From: Crystallibacter permensis
Lineage (GTDB): Bacteria; Actinomycetota; Actinomycetes; Actinomycetales; Micrococcaceae
Length of the DNA stretch: 64,000 nucleotides
NCBI RefSeq assembly: GCF_025960875.1
Contig: NZ_JAODLR010000015.1
Coordinates: 1-64,000, forward strand
Reading direction: 5' to 3'
Made by a program: the position numbers and the translations under genes. The notes under the pieces were generated by a model. It searched no databases. It was given only the letters and a program-made list of their open reading frames with translations, and had not been told where the DNA came from. Shown here in pieces: positions 16,330 through 29,775 of the stretch; position 1 is the first letter of the stretch; each line of letters starts with the position of its first letter.

Positions 16330-17859
16330 TCAGGCGTGGACGTCGTCGGCGGCGGTTCCACGGCGCAGAGTCTCTCCCCGGAAGAAGCCCGGGTGCCGCT
16401 TGTACATCACGAACATCAGCACCGCGCCGAGCAGGATCACGCCGCAGCCGAGGATGAAGACCAGCCCGACGCCGCCCACCGATGAGCCGGAGCCGTAGGC
16501 CGGATCCAGCGAGTCCTTGGCGGTCTGGAAGAACATCACCAGCAGGATGATCCCGCCGAGCAGCGGCGAGAGGAAACTGAAGAAAAAGTTCCGGGCGCCG
16601 GCGAATGCTTCGGCGCGGAAGTACCAGACGCAAGCCAGCGCGGTGACGCCGTAGTAGAAGCAGATCATCATGCCCAACGCGGTGATGGTGTCCCAGAGCG
16701 CGTTCTCGGACAGCACCCGCGTGACCGTGTAGAACGCTCCGGAAGCGATGGCCGCGGCCACCGTGGCGTAGCCCGGGGAGCGGAAGCGCGGGCTGATCCG
16801 CCCGTAGCTCGCCGGCAGTGCGCGGTAGTGGCCCATGGCGAGCATGGTCCGCGCCGGGGATACGAACGTCGACTGCAGGGAAGCAGCCGAGCTGCTCAGC
16901 ACGGCCAGCGACATCAGGATGGCAAACGGTCCCATCACCGGTCCGGCCAGGGCGGCGAAGATGCTTTCCTGGTTCTCCGGGTTGCCGGCGCCGAGACCCT
17001 CGGTCCCGATCCCGGCGTAGCTCAGCACGGCCAGCGCCATGAGCATGTAGAGCACCACGATCACGAAAATGGTGGCGGCAGCGGCGCGGCCAGGGGTCTT
17101 CTCCGGGTCCTTGGTCTCCTCGTTCATGGTCAGGGTGACGTCCCAGCCCCAGTAGATGAAGATGGACAGCGAGACGCCGGCGGCGAAGGTCGAGAAGGAG
17201 TCCACCGCGAACGGATTGAACCACTCGGCGCTGATGGCCGATGAGTCGAAGGCCGTCCCGTTGCCCACTTAGACAAAGGCGGCGACGGCGAACCAGGCGA
17301 GCACCAGCAACTGGAAGCCGACCAGGATGTACTGCAGCTTCTTGGTGGTTTCCATGCCGCGGTAGGACACCCAGCACGCCAGCGAGATGAACACCAGGGT
17401 GGTGGCGATGTTCAGCGGAACGTTCCCGGCCAGCGCGGCCAGCGAAGCGTTCCCGGTGACCTGCGCCAGCATCAGGTAGAAGAACTCCACCGCAACGGCG
17501 GCCAGGTTCGAGAGCACGATGATGGTCGCCGCGACCAGTCCCCAGCCGCCCATCCAGCCCACCCACGGACCGAAAGCGCGGGTGGCCCAAGTGAACGAGG
17601 TGCCGGAATCAGGCATCGCGTTGTTCAGCTCGCGGTAGCCCAGCGCCACCAGGAGCATCGGAATGAAGCCGACAAGGAAGATCGCCGGCAGCTGCACCCC
17701 CACCTGGGCAATGGTCGGCCCCAGCGACGCGGTCAGCGTGTAGGCCGGGGCGATGCAGGAAACCCCAATAACGACGGCGCCAAGCAGCCCGACCGTACCG
17801 CCCTTCAGGCCCTTGCGGCTCAGCCCGGACACCCTCCGGGTGCCGATAGATTCACTCAT
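16330..17859 (-). pseudogene. APC-superfamily amino acid/polyamine permease interrupted by an in-frame TAA
   Basis: Read through, the frame encodes 508 residues that align along their length with the intact permease at 28.2-29.8 kb (shared SGTxFTWxTxAFGPxVGWMGGWG, MNEET, PVMGPFAILxSLAVLSS, ICFYYGxTALACVWYFR). A single TAA at 17269-17271 breaks it after AWFAVAAFV, just before the residues corresponding to the paralogue's middle loop. Frame is kept on both sides, so one base change explains the break. The next codon is GTG, but restart there would give only the C-terminal half. It is the third gene of the puo operon; its ATG follows AAGGATGG and lies just after the stress-protein stop. Probable lost substrate: putrescine or a related amine. 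Confidence 0.85.
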
Positions 17860-17861
17860 GG

Positions 17862-18746
17862 CTAGCCATCCTTGTTTGTGTCCGCCGGTGTGGTCCGGTC
17901 GGACCGGTAGTTGCGCGGTACCACGACCATCGGTACGGGCAGCGTCCGGAGCACCTTGTTGGCCGTTGCGCCCAGGAAAAGCCGGTTGTTCCGGGCCAGG
18001 CGGCTGGAGCCGATCATCATTAGCTCCCCCTCGTCCCACTCCAGTCCCTCGATGGCATCCTCAATGGTCCTGCCGTGGGCAACCGTCCTGGTCACTTTGC
18101 CGGGAAGCTGTGCTGCAGCCGCGGCAAAACGCTCGGACATGTTGGCTTCTGCGGCGCGGACGGCTTCGGGATTATCCGGGTCCAGGGCCACCAGGGACAC
18201 CAGCCGCAGTGGCAGCGACCGCCAGGATGCCGCCCCTACCGCTGCCTGCAGAACGTCGTCGGCGCCGGGCCTGGTTCCGATCCCGCAGGTCAGGCGCGTG
18301 ATGGGCTCCTGCCGCCGGTAGCCCTTGGGCGCCAGCGCCACCGGCACGTCGGCGGCGTGCAGCAGCGTCGAGGAAACGCTGCCGACGCTGAACCGGCGCA
18401 GCAGACTGCTGCGGGCAGCGCCCACCACGATGACCGCGGCGGAGAAGTCGCGCGCGGCCTCGATCAGGCCCTCGGCGGTTGACTCGGCCTGGCGTACATG
18501 GGCCTTCGCTGTCACATCATGGGGCACCAGCGCGAGGCCCTCGGCCAGCCACTGATCGAGCTGCTCTGCCAGAATCCGTTCGTAGCCCCGGCCCGACGGC
18601 GGATAGGTTCCGGCATAGGGCGAGTCCGGCGATTGGACCATGACCAGGTCCAGCGAGGCCTGCTGGCTGCGGGCCAGGGCCACGGCCAGATTGACCGCGT
18701 CCCTGCCGTTCTCGGTGGCCGTGTAGCCGACGACGTACCTGCGCAT
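17862..18746 (-). CDS. Universal stress protein, tandem UspA domains
   Basis: 294 residues made of two UspA domains. Domain 1 begins RRYVVGYTATENG and closes with VVGAARSSLLRRFSVGSVSSTLLHAADVPVALAP. Domain 2 ends MMIGSSRLARNNRLFLGATANKVLRTLPVPMVVVP. Both carry the small-residue ATP-loop pattern in degraded form. It starts 5 nt after the putrescine oxidase stop and ends just before the permease start, so it is part of that operon. UspA proteins are nucleotide-binding stress modulators; a function tied to amine use is not established. Confidence 0.87.
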   Translation of the reverse strand: MRRYVVGYTATENGRDAVNLAVALARSQQASLDLVMVQSPDSPYAGTYPPSGRGYERILAEQLDQWLAEGLALVPHDVTAKAHVRQAESTAEGLIEAARDFSAAVIVVGAARSSLLRRFSVGSVSSTLLHAADVPVALAPKGYRRQEPITRLTCGIGTRPGADDVLQAAVGAASWRSLPLRLVSLVALDPDNPEAVRAAEANMSERFAAAAAQLPGKVTRTVAHGRTIEDAIEGLEWDEGELMMIGSSRLARNNRLFLGATANKVLRTLPVPMVVVPRNYRSDRTTPADTNKDG

Positions 18747-18751
18747 GCTGC

Positions 18752-20191
18752 TCACGCCCCGTGGTGCGCGGTCCCGGCACGCTCCCCGGCCGCGGTTTGA
18801 GCTGCGCCAAGAATCCGGGCGGCGGTTTGCTGGCCCATCCGGACGGCTCCGTCCACATGCTGGTATCCCTCGGCCGCCAGGTCCGAGCAGGACCAGTAGA
18901 TCGGGCCGACCGGCGTGAGCTGGTCCTTGCCGTAGCGGTGCAGCCCGCCCAGGTCGTAGCTGGCCGCATAGGCTCCGCGGGTCCATTCCTCCGAACCCCA
19001 GTCGGATTCGTAGTAGACCACCGGCTCCAGCGCCTTCGGACCAAGGTATTCCGCCACTGCACCCAGGACGGCGGCCCTGCGGTCCTCCGCGCTGAGCTCG
19101 AACATGGCATCGGCCTTTTCATCGGAGATGAAGCCGACCAGGGTGCCGCGCGGATCCTGGTAGTTGGTGTTGTCGTAGACTTCCTGCACCACGGAGGCCG
19201 GGCTGAAACAAGTGCCGGATAGGCCCTCTTCGCGCCAGAACGGAGTCTCGTAGACGGTGTGGATCTTGATGACCAGGCCCAGCGACTGGTGCTGGTGCAT
19301 CTGGTGCTGGCGGCGCGGCAGCGGCGGCTCAAAGGAGACCCGCGAGTACAGGTTCGGCGGCACAGCCATGATGGCGTAGCGGGCACGCACGGTAACGGAA
19401 TCCGAAATGGCGGTCACGCCGTCGTGCGTTGAATCCGCGGCAGCAGTGGCGGCATCCGGTGCCTGCCCCGCCCACCGCAGCGTGCGCACCGGGCTGTTGA
19501 GTACGACGTCGTCCCCCAGCTTTGCGGCGAGGCGTTCCGACACCTGCTGCATGCCGCCGATAACGCGCTTGTCCAGGATGAAATTGTCATCGACCAGGTT
19601 GCTGAAGGATCCGGCGGAGGCCGCCATCAGCACGGCCTGCAGCGCGGAGAAGGAGTGCGCGGGCTTGGTCAGCATGCCGCCGGCAATGAAGAGGCCGATG
19701 TTGTTGCAGGCGTCCTCGTCGCTGGACTGCTTGCGGAGCCAGTGGTGGAAGGAAATGGTGTCCAGTTCGCGCGCCATCGGGTGGGTCCACGGCGCGTCGG
19801 GGCCGGCCTCCGCGGCGAGGGTGTCCAGGATGCCGATCAGGCGGTCCATTTCGGCCTGCGTCCGCTCGCTGACCGGGAACAGCTCGCCGGTGTAGCGCTT
19901 CCGCTTTGCGTCCGGACCGATGTAGATGGATTCACCGTGGCGGTAGCGCGGGAACGTTTCCAGGCCCAGTTCGTCCAGCAGCCCGAGCAACGCGGTCTGG
20001 TCCGGCGAGACCCACTGGCCGCCGATTTCGAGCATGGCGCCGTCGATGGTGTCGGTCCAGGTACGGCCGCCAACACGGTCGCGCGCCTCCAGCACGGCGA
20101 CGCTCAGGCCGGCTTTCTTCAGCTCCCAGGCGGCGGTCAGTCCGGAGGGTCCTGCGCCGATAATAACGACGTCGCGTTCCATGGTGCTCAC
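18752..20191 (-). CDS. puo: Putrescine oxidase (flavin monoamine oxidase)
   Basis: Oxidises putrescine with oxygen to 4-aminobutanal, ammonia and hydrogen peroxide. The 479-residue protein has the dinucleotide-binding IIGAGPSG (10-17) with the RDRVGGRTWTD motif, EIGGQWVSPDQ, and a C-terminal FAD region YWSCSDLAAEGYQHVDGAV. Whole-length similarity to actinobacterial putrescine oxidases is visible from recall (RKQSSDEDACNNIGLFIAGGMLTKPAHSF is nearly invariant in parts). It heads an operon with a universal stress protein and a broken APC permease, and is divergent from a TetR gene. A TetR-type operator lies 27 bp upstream. Catalase, 16 kb away, could remove the peroxide but is not linked. Confidence 0.92.
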   Translation of the reverse strand: MSTMERDVVIIGAGPSGLTAAWELKKAGLSVAVLEARDRVGGRTWTDTIDGAMLEIGGQWVSPDQTALLGLLDELGLETFPRYRHGESIYIGPDAKRKRYTGELFPVSERTQAEMDRLIGILDTLAAEAGPDAPWTHPMARELDTISFHHWLRKQSSDEDACNNIGLFIAGGMLTKPAHSFSALQAVLMAASAGSFSNLVDDNFILDKRVIGGMQQVSERLAAKLGDDVVLNSPVRTLRWAGQAPDAATAAADSTHDGVTAISDSVTVRARYAIMAVPPNLYSRVSFEPPLPRRQHQMHQHQSLGLVIKIHTVYETPFWREEGLSGTCFSPASVVQEVYDNTNYQDPRGTLVGFISDEKADAMFELSAEDRRAAVLGAVAEYLGPKALEPVVYYESDWGSEEWTRGAYAASYDLGGLHRYGKDQLTPVGPIYWSCSDLAAEGYQHVDGAVRMGQQTAARILGAAQTAAGERAGTAHHGA

Positions 20192-20217: not shown

Positions 20218-20238
20218 TAAATGAATAACGTTCATTTA
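20218..20238. promoter_or_regulatory. TetR operator between puo and tetR (21-bp inverted repeat)
   Basis: Arms TAAATGAA and TTCATTTA are perfect around TAACG. The same arms recur twice in front of the aguB operon, so this is the best candidate for the binding site of the divergent TetR protein, controlling both itself and puo. Confidence 0.75.
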
Positions 20239-20341
20239 CTTTAACTGTAGCCGGTGGCTGGGCGGATGGGAAGCGGAACGTAGGATATTTTTAGCGGCCC
20301 GCACCGGGCCGGTTGATAAACGAGCCACAAGGAGGCCCGCC

Positions 20342-21031
20342 ATCGCGGTTTCAGCATCGGGGACGCACCGCTCTGCCGGACGCCCGGCACAGAAGGTCCT
20401 GTCCAAGGAGCTCATCACGTCGGCGGCCCTGAAGCTGATCGAGGCCAGCGGCTACGACGCCCTGACCATGTCCGCCCTGGCCAAACGCCTGGGCGTCGCG
20501 CCGTCCGCGCTGTACAACCACGTGAAGTCCAAGCACGATGTCCTCCTGCTCCTGCAGGACCACCTGATGAACAGGGTGGACGTCAGCGGCTTTGGCACGC
20601 TGCCCTGGCCGGAGGCCGTTCGCAATTGGGCCTGGTCCTACCGCGACGTGTTCACCCAGCACTCCCCGCTGATTCCCGTCATCGCCGTGCTGCCCGTGAC
20701 CGGTGCACCGCGTACCCTGCAAATGTATGAAGAACTGACCCGCGGCTTTCTCGACGCCGGCTGGCCCGAGCCTTTGGTGGTTCCCGCGATCGTCGCCTTG
20801 GAGTCCTTTATCTTCGGCTCCGCCTTTGACGTGGCTGCTCCCGAGGACATTTTCGAAACCGGCGAACTGGCCGATTCCAGCCCGCACTTCACCGCGGCTG
20901 TCCGGGCCCGCCAATTGCCGGCAGACGGAGCACCGGCGGATGCAGCCTTCCGGTTGGGGCTCAACGGGCTCATCTCCGGACTGGACGCCCAGCGGCAGGC
21001 ATGGGCCGACGCCCCCAGCACCGCCGGGTAA
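20342..21031 (+). CDS. TetR family regulator, apparently ATC-initiated
   Basis: The 229-residue protein has a canonical HTH (SKELITSAALKLIEASGYDALTMSALAKRLGVAPSALYNHVKSKHDVL, written here in parts: SALAKRLGVAPSALYNHVKS is the recognition region). AAGGAGG stands 6 nt before an ATC codon at the expected N-terminus, and no ATG, GTG or TTG exists in frame nearby; the first ATG (20468) would remove helix 1 of the DNA-binding domain. The C-terminal domain is a ligand pocket of unknown specificity. Location, divergent from puo, and the shared operator at the agmatine operon suggest control by a polyamine or aldehyde. Confidence 0.82.
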   Translation: MAVSASGTHRSAGRPAQKVLSKELITSAALKLIEASGYDALTMSALAKRLGVAPSALYNHVKSKHDVLLLLQDHLMNRVDVSGFGTLPWPEAVRNWAWSYRDVFTQHSPLIPVIAVLPVTGAPRTLQMYEELTRGFLDAGWPEPLVVPAIVALESFIFGSAFDVAAPEDIFETGELADSSPHFTAAVRARQLPADGAPADAAFRLGLNGLISGLDAQRQAWADAPSTAG

Positions 21032-21153
21032 CTGAGTGAATCCATTGTGCAGATGAGGCGGTATGGACCATGGGCAAAAGTCGCCTGACCTGCACGATAA
21101 ACGGCAAAGCATGATCTGCCATCGACCAGGGCCAGCCCTCGTCGTTGTCCGAG

Positions 21154-21954
21154 TCAGTCGGAGGTGGTCGCTTCCGGGCGGTCCAGGCCCTCGAACGGTT
21201 CCAGCGCCGCCAGGAACTGTTCGCGGTCTTCATTCCGGACAGTGGTAGCGCCGTAGGAGATGGTGATGGAACGCGGATTCCAGCCGTACTCGATGCTGCC
21301 CTTCATCTCCTCGACGGCCTCGCCGGTCGGGTCCCGCTCCACATCGGTCAGCGTGAGGCTCACCCACTGGGACTGGCCGTAGGCGTCGCCGAACCACTGC
21401 CACTGGTGTTGCAGCTCAGTTGAGCCGAGGCGTTCGGCGGTCTCTTCGGCAAGGGCCGGTTCAAGGTTCCCCAGCTCAAGCTTGCCGAGGCCGTAGGACT
21501 CGGTCACCTCGGACACGATGTCCACGGCGCGCTGCCAGTCCTGGGGATCTTCGGGAACGGCCAGGCTTTCGCGCGGCACCGAGTTGAAGGAGACGTAGAG
21601 CGAGTCGCCGCCGTAGCCGTTGCCCTCCTGGGGAAAGAAACTTTCGCCGTCGTCGGGCCCGTCTTCCCAGGCGTGCCCGAACTCGTCCGTCAGCCGCGCC
21701 TCGATCTCACCGAGCAGCTTCCCTGAAACGGCCTCCAGTTCTTCGGCCGGCGGAGCCTGCAGCACGTCTTCCGCTGCGGTGTACGCATGGCCCGGGTACT
21801 CTGCCCAGTCAACGGTGATCTCCTGGCCGCCTGCCTGATAGGTGGTTGTCGGCGAGGATGCGCAGCCTGCGAGCAGGACGGCGAGCGCGGCTGTGCCTGC
21901 CACCCGGGCTGCGTGATCAGAGCGGACCCTCGTCCCCTCCCGGTTCTCCGTCAT
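21154..21954 (-). CDS. Predicted lipoprotein, 266 aa
   Basis: A lipobox LLAGC follows a short hydrophobic signal (about 19-31), so the mature protein is anchored outside the membrane by Cys 31. The rest is acidic with a beta-rich pattern (SLYVSFNSVP, WVSLTLTDVE, SITISYGATT). No named domain was recognised. The start overlaps the stop of the upstream AAA ATPase by 4 bp, indicating translational coupling. Pairing of a cytoplasmic AAA ATPase with a surface lipoprotein is unexplained. Confidence 0.75.
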   Translation of the reverse strand: MTENREGTRVRSDHAARVAGTAALAVLLAGCASSPTTTYQAGGQEITVDWAEYPGHAYTAAEDVLQAPPAEELEAVSGKLLGEIEARLTDEFGHAWEDGPDDGESFFPQEGNGYGGDSLYVSFNSVPRESLAVPEDPQDWQRAVDIVSEVTESYGLGKLELGNLEPALAEETAERLGSTELQHQWQWFGDAYGQSQWVSLTLTDVERDPTGEAVEEMKGSIEYGWNPRSITISYGATTVRNEDREQFLAALEPFEGLDRPEATTSD

Positions 21955-23354
21955 TCCGCTATGTCCGCACTGTGCCGCTCTCCGCCGCTGCCGAGCAGGC
22001 TGCGGGTCAGCGCCGCGCTGTCCGCCATCAGCTCCTCGACGGCGGAGAGCAGGTGCTCGTCGGCCACGTCGGCTCCCGCGAGCGCCGCTGCGACAACGGC
22101 GCGGCGGACCAGCTCCTTGGCCAACGAGGCGGTTGTCCCCGCGGTCCGTTCCGCTGTCACGCTGATGGCCTCCGCGCTGAACGCGATTTCGCGTGCATAA
22201 AGTTCCAGCAGCGCAGCGCGTTCATGTACTTCCGGCAGGGGAATCTCCACGGCCAGGTCCACCCTGCCCGGCCGCTGCGCCAGAGCACGCTCGAGCATGT
22301 CCACCCGGTTGGTGGTGAGGATAAAGGCCACGTCCGCATCGTCGTCGAGACCGTCCATGGCGTCCAGCACTTCGAAGAGTAGCGGCTGCGGGCCATGGCC
22401 AAAACTGCGGTCTTCGGCGATGAGGTCGCAGTCCTCCAGAATGACCATCGACGGTTGCAGTGCCCGTGCCATTCTGGCCGCCTCGGCGATATAAGCCAGC
22501 GAGCCGCCGGAGAGGATGATCGCCGTCGTTCCTTTGCTGCGGCCCAGCAGATAGCGCACCGTGTGGGTCTTGCCGGTACCGGGTGGCCCGTAGAGCAGGA
22601 TGCCGCGTTTGAGGTGCTGGCCGAGCGCCTCGAGCTGCTCCCGGTGCTCGGCCATACCGACGGCGTGGTCTGATACTTTCTCGAGCAGGCCCTCGGGCAG
22701 GATGACGTCCGCGGCCGTGAGGGAAGGCCGTTCGTGGAAGGTCACGCCGGCGCCGCTGGAGCCGTACTCATCCATGGTCAGCGAGACCACCTGGCCCTTA
22801 AGGACGCTGCGCGTCTGCAGCTGGGTGCGCAACACGGACAGGAATTCCGCGGCGGCGCTCGGCTCGGGCGAAAGGACCTCCAACAGCGCTGTTGGCCGGC
22901 CGAAGCGGGGGCTTGCTTCCCGCTGCAGCACGGCGAGCGGCACGCCGGAGCGGGTGATCAGGCGGATCCCCAGGGCCACCACCTGACGCTGCTCGCTGGG
23001 GCCGATGGCAAGGTTGGTGTAGTCCGGCTGGGCGAGCGGAAATTGCGGGAACATTTGGGCCTGCTGCAGCATGTCGCTCAGGGAAGAGTGGTGGCGCTGG
23101 TCCCCGCCGCCGATGCCGACCAGCCGCTGCTCCGGATCCTCCGCTGCCAACTCGGCGAGCAGGATGTCCACGTCCGCAAAGCGGTGTGCGGAGATTTCCT
23201 CCACGACCACCGGGACTTCATTTGCAGGCAGCCCGAGGTGCTCCGACAGCGTGTTCAGCAGCTGCTCGCCGCGGGGAAACCGCTGCTGCCGCGCCTGCGC
23301 CAACTGCACCAGCGCGGCGAAATCGTCCATGAACTTCCCCAGGCCCTCGGTCAT
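21951..23354 (-). CDS. AAA family ATPase
   Basis: 467 residues. The N-terminal 240 are family-specific without recognised motifs. The AAA module has Walker A GPPGTGKT (256-263), Walker B MVILED (303-308), sensor-1 TTNRVD (around 349) and an arginine finger in QRPGRVD (361-364), so it should be a competent oligomeric ATPase, similar to FtsH/Cdc48-type modules but without a protease domain. It is followed immediately by a coupled lipoprotein gene. Possible roles are protein remodelling or secretion; the substrate is unknown. Confidence 0.88.
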   Translation of the reverse strand: MTEGLGKFMDDFAALVQLAQARQQRFPRGEQLLNTLSEHLGLPANEVPVVVEEISAHRFADVDILLAELAAEDPEQRLVGIGGGDQRHHSSLSDMLQQAQMFPQFPLAQPDYTNLAIGPSEQRQVVALGIRLITRSGVPLAVLQREASPRFGRPTALLEVLSPEPSAAAEFLSVLRTQLQTRSVLKGQVVSLTMDEYGSSGAGVTFHERPSLTAADVILPEGLLEKVSDHAVGMAEHREQLEALGQHLKRGILLYGPPGTGKTHTVRYLLGRSKGTTAIILSGGSLAYIAEAARMARALQPSMVILEDCDLIAEDRSFGHGPQPLLFEVLDAMDGLDDDADVAFILTTNRVDMLERALAQRPGRVDLAVEIPLPEVHERAALLELYAREIAFSAEAISVTAERTAGTTASLAKELVRRAVVAAALAGADVADEHLLSAVEELMADSAALTRSLLGSGGERHSADIAE

Positions 23355-23543
23355 GGCTTGACCCTACCAGCGGGACTCGCCGCGGCGGAGAGCCGATGCC
23401 GTGGACGAAGGCAACGAAGGCAAAGTACGAGCGGAGCTTCCTTCTAACGTTCGTAAGATTGACTCATGGCCGCTCCGGATTAGCGCTGTCGGCTGCGCAG
23501 GACGCCTCGTAGATACAAAACAGCACTTCGGAAAGCAGGCATT

Positions 23544-25235
23544 GTGAGCGCAGACTGGATCTTCCACTCCGGTCGGATTTTCGACGGGCAGCAGATCCAT
23601 CCGACGGCGACGGCGGTAGCGGTCAAGGACGGCCGGATCACCGCCGTGGGCACCGAAGCGCAGGTGCGCGAAGCTGCCGGAACCGCCGCGGAAACAGTGG
23701 ACCTGGCCGGACGCTTCCTCACTCCCGGCTTCACGGACGCACATGTCCATGCCGTCTATGGCGGCGTGGAGCGGCGCGGCTGCGATCTGTCCGAGGTCTC
23801 CGGGCTGGACGCCATCTTGGCCCGCCTCGACGCCTACGCTGCCTCCACCGAAAAGAACTGGATCACCGGCGGAGGCTGGCACAAGGCGGACTTCCTCAAT
23901 GGCTACCCCACGCGTGACCTGCTCGACGCGATCGTGCCGGACCGCCCGGTCTACCTCATCAACGCGGACCATCACAGCGCCTGGGTCAATACCCGTGCGC
24001 TGGAACTCGCCGGGGTGGATGCGGCAACGCCAAACCCCGCGGACGGCTGGATCGAGCGCGGTCCGGACGGTTTTCCCACCGGTACGCTGCACGAGGGCGC
24101 GATGGACCTGGTCAACAGGCTCCTGCCGCCACTGACCGACGAGGATCTCTGCGGCGGACTGCTCGAGGCCCAGCGCTACCTGCATTCGGTCGGCGTTACC
24201 GGCTGGCAGGAAGCGATCCTCGGCAGCTACGCGGGCTACCCGGACGCCAGCAGCGCCTACCGCACTCTGGCCGGCCGCGGCCTGCTGACCGGCAGGGCAA
24301 CCGGCGCACTCTGGGTGCCGCGCACTACTACCGCGGACAACATCGCCGAACTGGTTGCCGATTTCGAAGAACGACGCCGGGCCAACGGTGCCGCCGGATT
24401 CGTCACCACGAGCGCCAAGATCATGGTGGACGGCGTGCCGGAGAACCGCACGGCCGCGATGCTGGATCCTTACCTCCGTCCGTGCCGTTGCGGGACCTCG
24501 GACGGCACGGGACACTATGCCGTGCCCGCCCAGGACGCGGACGGGGAGGACAACGGGTTGCTGTACCTGCCCAAGGAGGTGCTGACCGATGTCGCCACCG
24601 CTCTGGATGCGGCCGGATTCGACCTGCACCTGCACGTGATCGGCGACCGCGCCGTACGGGACGGGCTGGACGCCGTCGAGCACGCCCGCCGCAGCAACCC
24701 CCAAACCCGCGGACGCCATCACATGGCGCACCTGCAGATCATCCATCCGGAGGACATCGCCCGTTTCGCCGCCCTCGACGTGACGGTCAACGCCCAGGCG
24801 CTCTGGGCCTGCAATGACGACCAGATGCTGCAACTGACGGTGCCGCTCATCGGTGAGGAACGCGCCGCCTGGCAGTATCCCTTCGGCTCGCTGCTGGCGG
24901 CCGGCGCCACCATGGCGATGGGCTCGGACTGGCCCGTGTCCACACCCGATCCCTGGCAAGCCATCCACGTGGCGGTCAACCGCGCCTACCCCGCCTACCC
25001 CGACGCGCCGCCCCTGCTGCCGGAGCAGGCTATCTCGCTGCAGACCGCTCTTTCGTCCTACACAGCGCGCTCGGCTTGGCTGAACCGCAACGACGACGGC
25101 GGCGCCATCGCGGTGGGCAAGGCCGCCGATCTGGTCGTACTGAATGCGGATCCCTTCCGGCTCGACCCGGCCGAGCTGCATACGGTCAGCACCGACTTCA
25201 CCATGGTGGCGGGGGCCGCGGTCTATACCGGATAG
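23544..25235 (+). CDS. YtcJ-type amidohydrolase (metal-dependent hydrolase)
   Basis: 563 residues starting at GTG. The amidohydrolase_3 landmarks are present: FTDAHVH (metal-binding HxH), INADHHSAWVNTRALE, HLHVIGDRAVRDGLDAVE, MAHLQIIHPEDI, and MGSDWPVSTPDPW carrying the catalytic Asp. Members hydrolyse N-substituted formamides, carbamates or related C-N bonds; the exact substrate is unknown. It lies between the puo and agu loci but carries no shared operator in its upstream region, so membership in the polyamine pathway is not supported. It is divergent from the AAA ATPase. Confidence 0.88.
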   Translation: MSADWIFHSGRIFDGQQIHPTATAVAVKDGRITAVGTEAQVREAAGTAAETVDLAGRFLTPGFTDAHVHAVYGGVERRGCDLSEVSGLDAILARLDAYAASTEKNWITGGGWHKADFLNGYPTRDLLDAIVPDRPVYLINADHHSAWVNTRALELAGVDAATPNPADGWIERGPDGFPTGTLHEGAMDLVNRLLPPLTDEDLCGGLLEAQRYLHSVGVTGWQEAILGSYAGYPDASSAYRTLAGRGLLTGRATGALWVPRTTTADNIAELVADFEERRRANGAAGFVTTSAKIMVDGVPENRTAAMLDPYLRPCRCGTSDGTGHYAVPAQDADGEDNGLLYLPKEVLTDVATALDAAGFDLHLHVIGDRAVRDGLDAVEHARRSNPQTRGRHHMAHLQIIHPEDIARFAALDVTVNAQALWACNDDQMLQLTVPLIGEERAAWQYPFGSLLAAGATMAMGSDWPVSTPDPWQAIHVAVNRAYPAYPDAPPLLPEQAISLQTALSSYTARSAWLNRNDDGGAIAVGKAADLVVLNADPFRLDPAELHTVSTDFTMVAGAAVYTG

Positions 25236-25434
25236 CCAAGGAAGCGAAGTCATGAGCCGGCCCACATCTACGACGACGCCAAACGCCATTTTCCACAGGA
25301 ACGGATCGCCGCAGCGCGGGCAAGGCTCGTCGTCACGATTACTACCGAACACTCCAACGAACTATGCCTGAAACTGACGCTTGATTGCGCTGACGGCCCT
25401 GTGCAGGATCTTCGCTGAGTGGGAACATAGGAGC

Positions 25435-25680
25435 ATGAGTGGGACATTTCAGGTAGTCATGGGAGAACGCGGCCGGCTGGTCGTGCCAGCTGAGCTGCGC
25501 GAGCGCCTCCATCTTGAGGCTGGAACGGTGCTGATTCTGCTCGAAACTCCGCAAGGGGTGGTTTTAGCAACGCGTGAACAGATCAAGCAGCTCGTGCGCG
25601 GCCAACTTGAGGGCACGAATATCGTAGCCGAGCTACTCGCCGATCGGCGCCGACAGGCGGCCGCCGAAGATGCTGCATGA
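25435..25680 (+). CDS. AbrB/MazE-type antitoxin (VapB)
   Basis: 81 residues. The swapped-hairpin DNA-binding motif is visible as GERGRLVVPAELRERLHLEAGTVL, and the C-terminal part is charged and helical, the usual toxin-binding tail. The ATG has an AGGAG only 1 nt away, so initiation may be leaderless, or an internal ATG 8 codons later could be used. It overlaps the PIN-domain gene by 4 bp. It should neutralise the toxin and repress the operon. Confidence 0.82.
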   Translation: MSGTFQVVMGERGRLVVPAELRERLHLEAGTVLILLETPQGVVLATREQIKQLVRGQLEGTNIVAELLADRRRQAAAEDAA

Positions 25681-26042
25681 ATCTCTTTGACGCCTCCGCC
25701 TTACTGAGTTTTCTCGCCGCGGAAGACGGCGCCGACATTGTCGAGGAGCAATTGGTCAAAGGCGGAGCCTGCAGCGCCGCCAATTGGTCGGAAACCGCGC
25801 AAAAACTGCTGTCCAAAGGCAAGGACTGGGAGCTGTCGCGTCGCTTGCTTTTGAGCTACGGCCTCGTGATTGAGCCGGTCCACGCATCCGACGCCGAGCA
25901 AGCCGCCCATCTTTGGCGCCGGGGCAGCGGCCTGTCTCTTGCGGATCGTCTCTGTCTCGCTACGGCCGAACGACTTGATGCCCTCGTCTGGACCGCCGAT
26001 ACGGCGTGGGGCGCGGAGGGAAGAATCAGACAAATCAGATAG
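25677..26042 (+). CDS. PIN-domain toxin (VapC-like ribonuclease)
   Basis: 121 residues. PIN-domain acidic residues are in place: Asp 5 (FDASA), Glu 39 (WSET), Asp 90 (LADRLCLA) and Asp 108 (TADTAW). These bind Mg2+ for RNA cleavage, usually of a tRNA or rRNA loop. The start overlaps the antitoxin stop (ATGA), the classical vapBC arrangement. The pair separates the amidohydrolase from the agmatine operon and is probably independent of both. Confidence 0.88.
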   Translation: MNLFDASALLSFLAAEDGADIVEEQLVKGGACSAANWSETAQKLLSKGKDWELSRRLLLSYGLVIEPVHASDAEQAAHLWRRGSGLSLADRLCLATAERLDALVWTADTAWGAEGRIRQIR

Positions 26043-26076
26043 GACCGCCTCAACTGAACTCGCGGCATCCGCAGTT

Positions 26077-26095
26077 TAACGAACGAGATTCATTT
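26077..26095. promoter_or_regulatory. Upstream TetR-like operator site (imperfect)
   Basis: Right arm TTCATTT is perfect and the left arm TAACGAA matches AAATGAA at five of seven positions, with the same 5-bp spacer. Its centre is 53 bp, about five helical turns, from the perfect aguB operator, suitable for cooperative binding or looping. Confidence 0.5.
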
Positions 26096-26100
26096 CCCCC

Positions 26101-26129
26101 TTGTGTTGCACGGCTCACACCTGCATAAT
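26101..26129 (+). promoter_or_regulatory. Probable promoter of the agmatine operon
   Basis: TTGTGT and CATAAT are spaced by 17 bp. The predicted start site falls inside the operator that begins at the next base, so bound repressor would block transcription. Confidence 0.5.
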
Positions 26130-26148
26130 AAATGAATCAAATTCATTT
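26130..26148. promoter_or_regulatory. TetR operator of the agmatine operon
   Basis: Perfect arms AAATGAA and TTCATTT around TCAAA, with the same arms and spacer length as the site between puo and tetR six kilobases away. Confidence 0.72.
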
Positions 26149-26183
26149 GATGTGACCCGCATCCCACGGAAGTGTTTCTCCCA

Positions 26184-27209
26184 ATGATTGAACTGACTCA
26201 ACTGGATCCGCCTGTCTCGTTTGCCCGTACTGAGCGGAGCGACCGCGCACCGCTGCGCGTCGGCTTGGTCCAGCACCGCTGGCATGCCGATACAGCGGAG
26301 ACCAAAGCCGAACTCGCCGAAGGGATCGCACGTGCGGCAGCCCTCAGCGCCGACGTCGTTTTCCTGCCGGAACTCACGCTGTCCAAATACCCGGCCGACA
26401 AGCTGCCCGAAGGCCGCGCCGCGGACCTGGCCGAAGACCTCCTGACCGGCCCCACCTTCACCTTCGCCGCCGAGGCCGCCCGTGCCAACAACGTGTGCGT
26501 GCACGCCTCGCTTTACCAGCGCGCCGATGACCCGGCCGACGAGCTCGGCCTGAACACCGCCATCCTGGTGTCGCCGCAGGGCGAACTGCTGGCCACCACC
26601 CACAAACTCCACATTCCGGTCACCGCCGGCTACTACGAAGACAAGTATTTCCGCCAGGGGCCCGCCGGCGAGGACGCCTACCAGGTGCACGAGCCGGCGG
26701 AACTGGGCGGTCTCCGGCTTGGCATGCCGACCTGCTGGGACGAGTGGTTCCCCGAACTCGCGCGGATGTATTCCCTCGGCGGCGCGGAACTCTTGGTCTA
26801 CCCGACGGCCATCGGTTCCGAGCCGGACCACCCGGACTTCGACACCCAGCCGCTCTGGCAGCAGGTCATCGTGGGCAACGGCATTGCCAACGGCCTGTTC
26901 ATGGTCGCCCCGAACCGCTGGGGCAACGAGGGCACCAATACCTTCTACGGCTCCTCCTTCATCTCCGATCCCTACGGCCGCATCCTGGTGCAGGCTCCGC
27001 GGGACGAGTCGGCGGTACTGGTTGCGGACCTCGATCTGGACCAGCGCAAGGACTGGCTGACGCTCTTCCCGTTCCTGACCACCCGCCGCCCGGACACCTA
27101 CGCCCGGCTGACCGAACCGGTCCGCGCGGACCAGCCCTTCGGCACGCCTGGCTCGGCGCAGCCGGCAGCAGGATCCGTGGCAGCAGCCACCGCAGGAACG
27201 GTGGCCTGA
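26184..27209 (+). CDS. aguB: N-carbamoylputrescine amidase
   Basis: Hydrolyses N-carbamoylputrescine to putrescine, ammonia and carbon dioxide. The 341-residue nitrilase-fold protein has the catalytic triad Glu 63 (PELTLSKY), Lys 141 (THKLHIP) and Cys 184 (TCWDEWFPE). Family-specific GYYEDKYFRQG, LLVYPTAIGSEP and FYGSSFISDPYG identify the AguB group rather than other nitrilases. The ATG at this position was preferred to a GTG four codons earlier because a GGAAG lies about 12 nt upstream. It is followed 2 nt later by agmatine deiminase, so the two sequential enzymes are co-transcribed. Confidence 0.93.
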   Translation: MIELTQLDPPVSFARTERSDRAPLRVGLVQHRWHADTAETKAELAEGIARAAALSADVVFLPELTLSKYPADKLPEGRAADLAEDLLTGPTFTFAAEAARANNVCVHASLYQRADDPADELGLNTAILVSPQGELLATTHKLHIPVTAGYYEDKYFRQGPAGEDAYQVHEPAELGGLRLGMPTCWDEWFPELARMYSLGGAELLVYPTAIGSEPDHPDFDTQPLWQQVIVGNGIANGLFMVAPNRWGNEGTNTFYGSSFISDPYGRILVQAPRDESAVLVADLDLDQRKDWLTLFPFLTTRRPDTYARLTEPVRADQPFGTPGSAQPAAGSVAAATAGTVA

Positions 27210-27211
27210 CC

Positions 27212-28249
27212 ATGGTCTGGAAGATGCCCGCCGAAACGGCCGAGCAGTCCCGCATCTGGATGGCTTTCCCGCCCGGCGGCTACACACTGGGCGACACCGA
27301 GGAGCAGGCCCACGCCGCCCGCTCCACCTGGGCGGCCGTGGCCAACGCCGTCGCCGAATTCGAACCGGTCACCATGGTGGTGGATCCGGCCGACGTCGCC
27401 ACCGCGCGGGACTACCTCTCCCCCGCCGTCGAAACGGTCACGGCTCCGCTGAACGATGCGTGGATGCGGGACATCGGCCCCACCTTCGTCACGAACGACG
27501 ACGGCGGGCTGGCTGCGGTCGATTGGGTGTTCAACGGCTGGGGCCAGCAGGACTGGGCGAGCTGGGACAAGGACGAAAAGATCGCCGCGCACGTGGCCGA
27601 TATGGCCGGCGTCGAACGCATTGCATCCGAGCTGGTCAACGAGGGCGGCGGCATCCAGGTGGACGGCGAAGGCACCGTCCTGGTCACCGAGACCGTCCAG
27701 CTGGACCCGGGCCGGAATCCCGGGGCCACCAAGGCGCAGATCGAGGCCGAGCTCGCGCGCACCATCGGCGCCGCCAAGGTCATCTGGCTGCCGCGCGGCC
27801 TGACCCGCGATTCCCAGCGCTACGGCACGCGCGGGCACGTGGACATTGTGGCCGCAATCCCCTCCCCCGGGACGCTGCTGGTCCACGCCCAGAACAACCC
27901 GGACCATCCGGACTATGAGGTCAGCCGCGAGATCATCGCGTTCCTTCACGGCACCACGGACGCCGCCGGCCGCAGCTGGAACATCGTCGAAGTACCCGCG
28001 CCGGAAACGCTGCGGGACGACGAGGACTTCGTGGACTACAGCTACATCAACCATCTGGTGGTCAACGGCGGCGTCATCGCCTGCACCTTCGCGGACCCGT
28101 CGGATGAAAAGGCGCTGGCCATTCTCGCCGACGTCTATCCCGGCCGCCGCGTTGTCGGCGTGGACGCCCGCGAACTCTTCGCCCGCGGCGGCGGCATCCA
28201 CTGCATCACCCAGCAGCAGCCCCGCTCTTCCCGAAAGGCCATGACATGA
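27212..28249 (+). CDS. aguA: Agmatine deiminase
   Basis: Converts agmatine to N-carbamoylputrescine and ammonia. The 345-residue pentein-fold protein shows NDAWMRDIGPTFV, NEGGGIQVDGEG, the catalytic His in GHVDIV (209) and the nucleophile Cys in GGIHCITQQQP (331). The reading frame extends upstream without a start, and the ATG just after the aguB stop is the natural choice. It overlaps the permease by 4 bp. With aguB and puo, it completes a route from agmatine to 4-aminobutanal; arginine decarboxylase is not in the window, so agmatine may come from outside. Confidence 0.94.
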   Translation: MVWKMPAETAEQSRIWMAFPPGGYTLGDTEEQAHAARSTWAAVANAVAEFEPVTMVVDPADVATARDYLSPAVETVTAPLNDAWMRDIGPTFVTNDDGGLAAVDWVFNGWGQQDWASWDKDEKIAAHVADMAGVERIASELVNEGGGIQVDGEGTVLVTETVQLDPGRNPGATKAQIEAELARTIGAAKVIWLPRGLTRDSQRYGTRGHVDIVAAIPSPGTLLVHAQNNPDHPDYEVSREIIAFLHGTTDAAGRSWNIVEVPAPETLRDDEDFVDYSYINHLVVNGGVIACTFADPSDEKALAILADVYPGRRVVGVDARELFARGGGIHCITQQQPRSSRKAMT

Positions 28250-29775
28250 GCCAGACAACACGCACCGCCCCGGCGGCGGCCCGGACCGGCAAGGGGCTCG
28301 CCAGCGGACAGCTCGGCCTGCTCGCCGTCGTCGTTATTGGTATTTCCACCATCGCCCCGGCCTACGTGCTGACCTCCACGCTGGGTCCCACCGTGCAGGC
28401 CATCGGCACCTATTTGCCGGCGATCTTCATTGTCGGCTTCGTGCCGATGTTCCTGGTGGCGCTGGGCTACCGCGAGTTGAACGCGGACTCGCCGGACAGC
28501 GGCACCACGTTCACCTGGGTGACCAAGGCGTTCGGACCGTTTGTGGGCTGGATGGGCGGTTGGGGGCTGCTGGCCGCCAACATCATCGTGCTTTCCAACC
28601 TGGCTGGCGTGGCGGTGGACTTCTTCTATCTCTTCCTCTCCCAGCTCACCGGTTCCCAGGCCATTGCGGATTTGGCCGCGAACAAGGTGGTCAATGTGCT
28701 GACCTGCCTGGTCTTTGTGGCGCTGGCGGTCTGGGTTTCGTGCCGCGGCATGAAGACCACCAAGACCGTGCAGTACGTGCTGGTGATTTTCCAGCTGGGC
28801 GTGCTGGCCTGGTTTGTGCTCGGCGCGCTGGCCAAGCTCGGCACTGTCCCGGAGGCGCAGCCGCTGGCATTCGACTGGGAGTGGTTCAACCCGTTCGGCA
28901 TTGAGAGCTTCTCCGCCTTCGCCGCCGGCCTGTCGCTGTCCATCTTCGCCTTCTGGGGCTGGGACGTCTGCCTGACGATGAATGAGGAAACCACCAACGG
29001 CAAGCGGACCTCCGGCATCGCCGCCGCGGTTACCGCCATCGCCGTTCTGGTCATCTATCTGCTGGGCTCGGTTGCGACGATCATGTTCGCCGGCATCGGG
29101 GACACCGGGCTGGGACTGAACAATCCGGACATCTCCGAGAACGTCTTCACCGCTATCGCCGGCCCCGTCATGGGCCCCTTCGCCATCCTCCTTTCGCTGG
29201 CGGTACTTTCCAGCTGCGCGTCCTCGCTGCAGTCCACCATGATCTCCCCCGCCCGCAGCCTGCTCGCCATGGGTTACTACAAGGCGCTGCCGGAGCGCTT
29301 CGCGAGAATCAACCCGCGCTTCCAGTCGCCGGTCTATGCCACGGTGGTGGCCGGTGCGGTCTCGGCAGGCTTCTACACGCTGATGCGCTTTGTCAGCGAC
29401 AACGTCCTCAACGACACGATCATGGCGCTGGGCCTGATGATCTGCTTCTACTACGGACTGACCGCGCTGGCCTGCGTCTGGTATTTCCGCCGGACCGCGT
29501 TCGTGAATGCACGCAGCTTCCTGTTCCGGTTCCTGTTCCCGCTGCTCGGCGGCCTGGCCCTGGTGGTCGTCTTCCTCCAGACCGCGGTGGACAGCTGGGA
29601 TCCGGCGTTCGGCAGCGGCTCTGAGGTCTTCGGGGTCGGGCTGGTCTTCATCATCGGCGTGGGCATCATCGCGCTGGGACTGGTGGCGATGCTGCTGTTC
29701 TACCGGCGGAACCCGGCGTTCTTCCGCGGCCAAACGCTCGAGCAGGATTCGCCAGCCCTGGTGGTGCCGGAGTAG
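28246..29775 (+). CDS. APC-superfamily amine/amino acid permease (intact)
   Basis: 509 residues with about 12 membrane helices typical of the APC fold; the opening GxxSxxxP-like region is GISTIAPAYVLTSTLGP, and the central helix carries WGWDVCLTMNEET. It overlaps aguA by ATGA, so it very probably imports agmatine, putrescine or a related amine. It is a close paralogue of the broken permease beside puo; it may cover for it. Substrate is inferred from the operon only. Confidence 0.9.
   Translation: MSQTTRTAPAAARTGKGLASGQLGLLAVVVIGISTIAPAYVLTSTLGPTVQAIGTYLPAIFIVGFVPMFLVALGYRELNADSPDSGTTFTWVTKAFGPFVGWMGGWGLLAANIIVLSNLAGVAVDFFYLFLSQLTGSQAIADLAANKVVNVLTCLVFVALAVWVSCRGMKTTKTVQYVLVIFQLGVLAWFVLGALAKLGTVPEAQPLAFDWEWFNPFGIESFSAFAAGLSLSIFAFWGWDVCLTMNEETTNGKRTSGIAAAVTAIAVLVIYLLGSVATIMFAGIGDTGLGLNNPDISENVFTAIAGPVMGPFAILLSLAVLSSCASSLQSTMISPARSLLAMGYYKALPERFARINPRFQSPVYATVVAGAVSAGFYTLMRFVSDNVLNDTIMALGLMICFYYGLTALACVWYFRRTAFVNARSFLFRFLFPLLGGLALVVVFLQTAVDSWDPAFGSGSEVFGVGLVFIIGVGIIALGLVAMLLFYRRNPAFFRGQTLEQDSPALVVPE

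Follow-up and report, generated by a model that had tools for sequence, protein, structure and literature searches.

A 64,000-nucleotide stretch of the genome of the soil bacterium Crystallibacter permensis (contig NZ_JAODLR010000015.1, positions 1 to 64,000; hereafter the window) carries a putrescine oxidase gene, puo, arranged divergently with a tetR gene whose product we name PuoR in this analysis, and a predicted agmatine-degradation operon, aguB-aguA-permease. The inverted repeat AAATGAA-N5-TTCATTT is present as a perfect copy at each locus, in the puo-tetR gap (O1) and before aguB (O2), with centers 5911 bp apart, and an imperfect copy with two mismatches (O3) lies 53 bp, center to center, from O2. 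The original prediction had placed the same perfect repeat at both loci about 5.9 kb apart; both sites are confirmed, the start of the first having been given one base too early (20219 is correct). The features concerned are as follows.

18752 to 20191, minus strand: puo, putrescine oxidase (Amino_oxidase Pfam domain; closest among solved structures to the putrescine oxidases 3rha, E 1.9e-240, and 2yg3, E 1.4e-225)
20219 to 20237: operator O1, AAATGAATAACGTTCATTT, between puo and tetR, immediately 3′ of the likely puo -10
20244 to 20272, minus strand: likely puo promoter predicted from sequence, -10 TACAGT (20244-20249), 17 bp spacer, weak -35 TTCCCA (20267-20272)
20342 to 21031, plus strand: tetR, encoding PuoR, with TetR_N and TetR_C_1 domains
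26077 to 26095: distal agu operator O3, TAACGAACGAGATTCATTT, 5 bp 5′ of the agu -35
26101 to 26129, plus strand: predicted agu promoter, -35 TTGTGT (26101-26106), 17 bp spacer, -10 CATAAT (26124-26129)
26130 to 26148: proximal agu operator O2, AAATGAATCAAATTCATTT, directly 3′ of the -10, over the presumed transcription start and 23 bp from the aguB frame
26172 to 27209, plus strand: aguB, putative N-carbamoylputrescine amidase (CN_hydrolase; start GTG 26172 or ATG 26184)
27212 to 28249, plus strand: aguA, putative agmatine deiminase (PAD_porph, 3e-111, 372.1 bits, cut-off 25)
28246 to 29775, plus strand: permease of the agu operon (AA_permease_2)

The sites stand in close register with promoter-like elements. 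On the puo side TACAGT lies 6 bp before O1, and at agu CATAAT ends exactly where O2 begins, so that a bound protein would cover the presumed transcription start at both promoters. The arrangement CTTG...CATAAT or CATACT abutting an operator recurs at many agu loci of other genera. A distal agu copy with 1-2 mismatches to AAAYGAAYNNNRTTCRTTT is found 50-53 bp upstream in 6/6 aguB loci of the window's genus, and elsewhere the proximal and distal copies are 53 (g9), 54-55 (g5), 55 (g22) or 56-57 bp (g17 and g23) apart. By this retained position O3 is a candidate second operator that, with O2, brackets the agu promoter. The third copy had been described as about five helical turns from the second; its position stands, while exact helical phasing is not conserved (50-57 bp across genomes), and looping over five turns as the reason for a third site is accordingly unsupported.

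Within its own genome the motif is specific. Under a first-order Markov model of the window, perfect copies are expected 1.8e-5 times per 64 kb and 0.0014 times per genome, and two were observed. Allowing up to three mismatches, the window holds three copies vs. 0.34 expected from shuffled windows (2/100 shuffles reach three). A scan of the whole genome (4,947,726 bases; pattern AAATGAAYNNNRTTCATTT, at most three mismatches, reversed pattern as control) recovered only O1, O2, and O3 with at most two mismatches; matches with exactly three numbered 10 besides these sites, and the reversed pattern gave 4 in all. Another match in the genome, C2:190911 (one mismatch in the 12-base core, three in the longer pattern), was rejected as a regulon member because it coincides in part with what looks like the start codon of a gene for a secreted, lysozyme-like protein (so named by appearance only) and lies at the level of chance.

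PuoR scores above the cut-offs of both TetR_N (PF00440, 46.0 bits, cut-off 24) and the ligand domain TetR_C_1 (PF02909, 37.9 bits, cut-off 21), stays below the equivalog score of the tetracycline repressor TetR (NF010319; 56.1 bits, score 265), and has a conserved palindromic operator-like site, O1, at its divergent target promoter. The TetR of genome G122 is 98% identical to it. The closest solved relative by sequence is Rha04620 (PDB 2g7g, E 1.7e-30), whose entry name is only putative transcriptional regulator and whose recognition helix, SSIYHH, is of the Ser type discussed below. Glu154 and Asp163 of the ligand domain show no variation, to two decimals, across the 87 PuoR-type rows compared, as might be expected if the ligand is cationic. 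The tetR start codon is apparently ATC (20342-20344), 6 bp after a perfect AAGGAGG; ATC also stands in loci L035 and L036, with ATG there in L038-L040. A rare start codon has thus apparently been conserved in a gene for a regulator.

The motif tracks the regulator across the family. TetR homologues (E ≤ 1e-20, which includes paralogues of about 35% identity) occur in 102/149 family genomes, and the family pattern AAYGAAYNNNRTTCRTT, with copies counted on one strand, occurs in 81/149, with 153 copies vs. 7 for the reversed pattern. Motif-bearing genomes make up 81/102 of those with a TetR homologue and 0/47 of those without (Fisher P 1e-22, a guide only, as kinship is uncorrected). Copies are also concentrated at amine genes: of the 146/153 that we classed by hand (the other 7 lie in G093, G109, G112, and G140), 134 precede puo, agu, permease, or related amine genes, comprising 72 in the puo-tetR gap (for three of them the label rests on adjacency to tetR alone), 51 upstream of aguB/aguA or of an aguA-like gene (some assigned from coordinates alone), 7 in front of permeases, 2 in front of aldehyde dehydrogenases, and one each ahead of a second puo and a copper amine oxidase. 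Outside these, 1 precedes an amidohydrolase, 5 lie beside a TetR paralogue, and 6 have no recognized amine-related gene (G009:C11, G099:2988220, G127:2599422 at a flavin adenine dinucleotide oxidoreductase, G126:1447474, G021:C76, and G142:3059211). The motif scan proposed for this genome and its relatives turned up no wide scatter of copies over unrelated promoters. Among 88 puo genes that passed a filter (identity of 58% or more, with the alignment beginning in the first 12 residues), 70 are preceded within 260 bp by a site with no more than one mismatch to AAAYGAAYNNNRTTCRTTT, 53 of them by a site without mismatch; of the 18 without a site, two lie inside agu operons and nine outside the family. 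In five genomes of one genus (G006, G084, G104, G121, and G135) a single tetR separates puo from agu and is flanked by one site on either side.

In other genera, genes found by the motif alone are likely further members of the regulon. These are a primary-amine (copper amine) oxidase (L188:3053-5053) and an aminobutyraldehyde dehydrogenase (L192:3589-5043), each above its NCBIfam subfamily cut-off, and a succinate-semialdehyde-dehydrogenase-like gene (L241:3576-4970), below the cut-off of that model. Further TetR paralogues have motif copies beside MFS transporter or amidohydrolase genes (L181:5137, L184:4988, and L080:10876). In another family (f14, g45; L224, L226, L228-L230, L232, and L235) the puo-tetR gap holds a one-sided degenerate form, approximately AAAGTGATYNGGCTTCATTA, and the regulator has the same Ala-type helix.

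A TetR paralogue with about 35% identity to PuoR, which we name AguR in this analysis, lies next to or close to many agu operons. Its ligand domain has Asp at position 154 in the 8 AguR compared and retains Asp163 in 88%. We classed operators as T-type (AAATGAA/TTCATTT), C-type (AAACGAA/TTCGTTT), or hybrid (one half of each) in 43 genomes, namely 32 that have aguB and 11 that lack it but have an aguA sharing 66% or more identity with the window's gene; genomes with more distant aguA, among them G118 (60%), G039 and G116 (both 56%), were left out. An agu-linked AguR is present in 19/43, with a C-type operator in 12, a hybrid in 6, one locus of each in G111, and a T-type operator in 0. The other 24 have T-type operators in 14 (genera g1, g9, g18, and g19), hybrids in 6 (g7 and G028), a C-type in 1, and no site in 3. 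Genus g28 holds both states (G098 with AguR and a C-type operator, G028 with a hybrid and no agu-linked AguR), and the hybrids of G028 and g7 have opposite halves converted. Among the more distant genomes, G118 lacks AguR and combines a C-type site at aguA with a Ser-type regulator at puo, and G039 and G116 have T-type sites. No AguR was found at agu in the window's genus, where the agu promoter is of the same kind but carries a PuoR-type operator, nor did a search for AguR remnants upstream of agu at 11 loci and in the window give a convincing match (best E 0.016). Because operator type follows the regulator and the promoter layout at agu is common to both classes, AguR-linked and AguR-less, PuoR probably took over agu in the window's genus.

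Operator type also covaries with the recognition helix. Most PuoR helices read APSALYNHV and AguR helices xxSSLYNHV; PuoR proteins with AAATGAA sites have Ala at residue 56, whereas AguR and four g3 regulators encoded beside puo, whose sites at puo itself are C-type, have Ser. An upstream site with no more than one mismatch is present in 82 of 130 TetR rows and absent from 48 (from L208 only because the matched stretch overran the site). Among those with a site, Ala rows have T-type operators in 65 cases and hybrids in 5 and never a C-type, and Ser rows have C-type operators in 10 and a hybrid plus a C site in 2 and never a T-type. These data are consistent with residue 56 reading the T/C base.

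Together, these patterns make it very probable that the sites form one regulon of PuoR. PuoR would be a repressor binding AAATGAAY-N3-RTTCATTT: at O1, just after the puo -10, it would block the putrescine oxidase operon, and at O2 and O3, flanking the agu promoter, it would block aguB-aguA-permease. One of the pathway's compounds, whether putrescine, agmatine, or N-carbamoylputrescine, would release it, so that uptake, conversion of agmatine to putrescine, and putrescine oxidation would be induced together, the agu enzymes making the putrescine that Puo oxidizes. The two-locus polyamine regulon originally proposed under this TetR is thus supported in its genome specificity and its co-occurrence with the regulator, and can be put more firmly than it first was; binding, repression, and inducer are what we infer. 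Another regulator, for instance a nitrogen or global one, might instead bind the sites while the TetR beside puo controls only itself or puo; in its favor, O1 is nearer puo than tetR and binding by PuoR is read from sequence. This seems very improbable, since the motif is absent from the TetR-less family genomes, regulators of the T-type and C-type groups have different recognition helices, agu operators with an agu-linked AguR are C-type or hybrid, and three sites in a genome are fewer than one would expect of a global regulator. Slimmer still is the chance that PuoR controls puo while an unlinked TetR paralogue of overlapping specificity controls agu in this genus. AguR-like unlinked paralogues do occur in some genomes, such as G062 (40% identical) and in G137, G123, and G063 (45-49%), but all four have an amidohydrolase homologue within 4 kb, three of them have no site with at most two mismatches in the stretch examined (L246 has a two-mismatch one), and in the window's genome, as in G122, G105, G085, and G136, the only AguR match at E ≤ 1e-20 is PuoR.

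By its sites, AguR would bind AAACGAAY-N3-RTTCGTTT, and agu was probably once under this dedicated paralogue. We lean slightly toward a transfer of the operon from AguR to PuoR, although the direction is not rooted, and a comparable, modest preference attaches to a hand-over in place, in which the promoter would have been kept, point changes would have turned AAACGAA/TTCGTTT into AAATGAA/TTCATTT through hybrids that survive, more than once, and AguR would have been lost. The reverse course, with the same regulon but agu first under PuoR and AAATGAA, and with AguR and AAACGAA acquired later in some genera, is a possible but more doubtful account; it draws on an unrooted tree on which there is one change only. 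Against it, the PuoR-like regulators of g3, on a supported branch of their own (with a long-branch warning), use AAACGAA at puo, and the window's distal site and the hybrids of G028 and g7 keep one C-type half.

Several observations weigh against the regulon and the hand-over as we describe them. The exact pattern is missing from 21/102 TetR-bearing genomes; several of these have sites with one or two mismatches or degenerate ones, and in the others no site was found. The two operator types are not cleanly apart, as 7/19 AguR genomes have a hybrid proximal agu operator. No site was found before aguB in G117, G032, and G045, and G035 (L202), with aguB-aguA-permease-puo in one cluster, pairs a C-type agu operator with an Ala-type PuoR encoded elsewhere in its genome (L043), no AguR being found there at E ≤ 1e-20. 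O1 lies 104 bp from the tetR start, and autoregulation of tetR through it is uncertain. At residue 56 the association of Ala or Ser with operator type is complete in 81 rows, and a single change on the ligand-domain tree, which is unrooted and carries a long-branch warning at the g3 rows, suffices for both traits; the association is for these reasons not independent evidence for residue 56, which we do not claim as a proven determinant of specificity. T-type sites also lie beyond the 3′ end of Ser-type TetR paralogues in L181 and L252. Both agu enzymes score below the equivalog cut-offs of their NCBIfam models, aguB with 193 bits (TIGR03381, its best model; cut-off 410.25) and aguA with 306.9 (TIGR03380; cut-off 381.8). 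The best solved match of aguB is an N-carbamoylputrescine amidohydrolase, and those of aguA are a putative agmatine deiminase followed by agmatine deiminases. We kept the name AguA because of its best model, its operon partner, and its solved relatives, and N-carbamoylputrescine amidase and agmatine deiminase remain the best assignments for aguB and aguA.

The remainder of the puo operon runs on the minus strand.

17862 to 18746, minus strand: universal-stress-protein-like gene (named by appearance), beside puo in many relatives
16330 to 17859, minus strand: amino-acid/polyamine permease, similar to the agu permease, with an in-frame TAA
15306 to 16202, minus strand: diacylglycerol-kinase-domain protein (DAGK_cat), possibly the last gene of the operon and also 3′ of puo in L035

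The TAA (17269-17271, minus strand) interrupts a frame that is open in L035 (G122). Either this permease has been lost, in which case the agu permease could fill its role, or the stop is a sequencing error. The interval between puo-tetR and agu holds an amidohydrolase, a MazE/PIN pair, and two genes named by appearance, one lipoprotein-like and one AAA-ATPase-like. Beside the amidohydrolase (23544-25235, plus strand) a further TetR, 30-32% identical to PuoR, is present in L197, L198, and L201, and the window's open reading frame list has none at that place; in L200 and L201 motif copies with two mismatches precede the amidohydrolase. The MazE-like/PIN-domain pair (25435-26042, plus strand) stands directly 5′ of the agu promoter, a space that in L197 holds instead an aldehyde dehydrogenase and a flavin oxidoreductase (by appearance).

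For the breakdown of agmatine and putrescine in the family of Arthrobacter, these results name a candidate regulator with its operator and its likely targets, and they supply a compact example in which control may have passed between paralogues, with hybrid operators still present in extant species. If the hand-over is true, these operators are a natural series of intermediates in which the absorption of an operon by a regulon can be followed, of use in the study of regulon evolution. The operator-PuoR pair might serve as a polyamine biosensor. Foster et al. (2013) reportedly described puo clusters with regulatory, stress, and transport genes in Micrococcaceae (Actinobacteria); to our knowledge no operator or link to agu was part of that description.

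Among the titles and abstract beginnings that searches of the open-licence literature listed, none reports a protein or DNA site controlling puo in the family of Arthrobacter, and the name PuoR together with putrescine had no match in that literature. Nor did it give anything of use on rewiring among paralogous TetR regulators, or any paper on the specificity of the Tet repressor. The accessible parts of reports on puo in A. arilaitensis (PMC2991359) and Glutamicibacter endophyticus (PMC11767460) name no regulator. Arthrobacter sp. Rue61a grows on agmatine and putrescine, and the same AguA-AguB-putrescine oxidase pathway was predicted for it, with no regulator or operator given in the accessible text (PMC3534580). 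Control of several polyamine genes by one actinobacterial regulator is described, in the part of the paper available, for EpuRII of Streptomyces coelicolor (PMC9397018); the likeness is one of function, and the route there is gamma-glutamylation. Closest in kind is AguR of Pseudomonas aeruginosa, according to the accessible text a TetR-family repressor of aguBA that agmatine releases and that is said to bind between -35 and -10 (PMC4287709). Both systems place agu genes under TetR-family control, and it is at that family level that the regulators are likened. The Pseudomonas repressor is described for aguBA, whereas in the window a single TetR seems to act on both puo and agu, from operators that follow the -10 and precede the -35 rather than lying between the two. 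The kind of system is already known, and the candidate hand-over of agu between paralogues is its interesting part.

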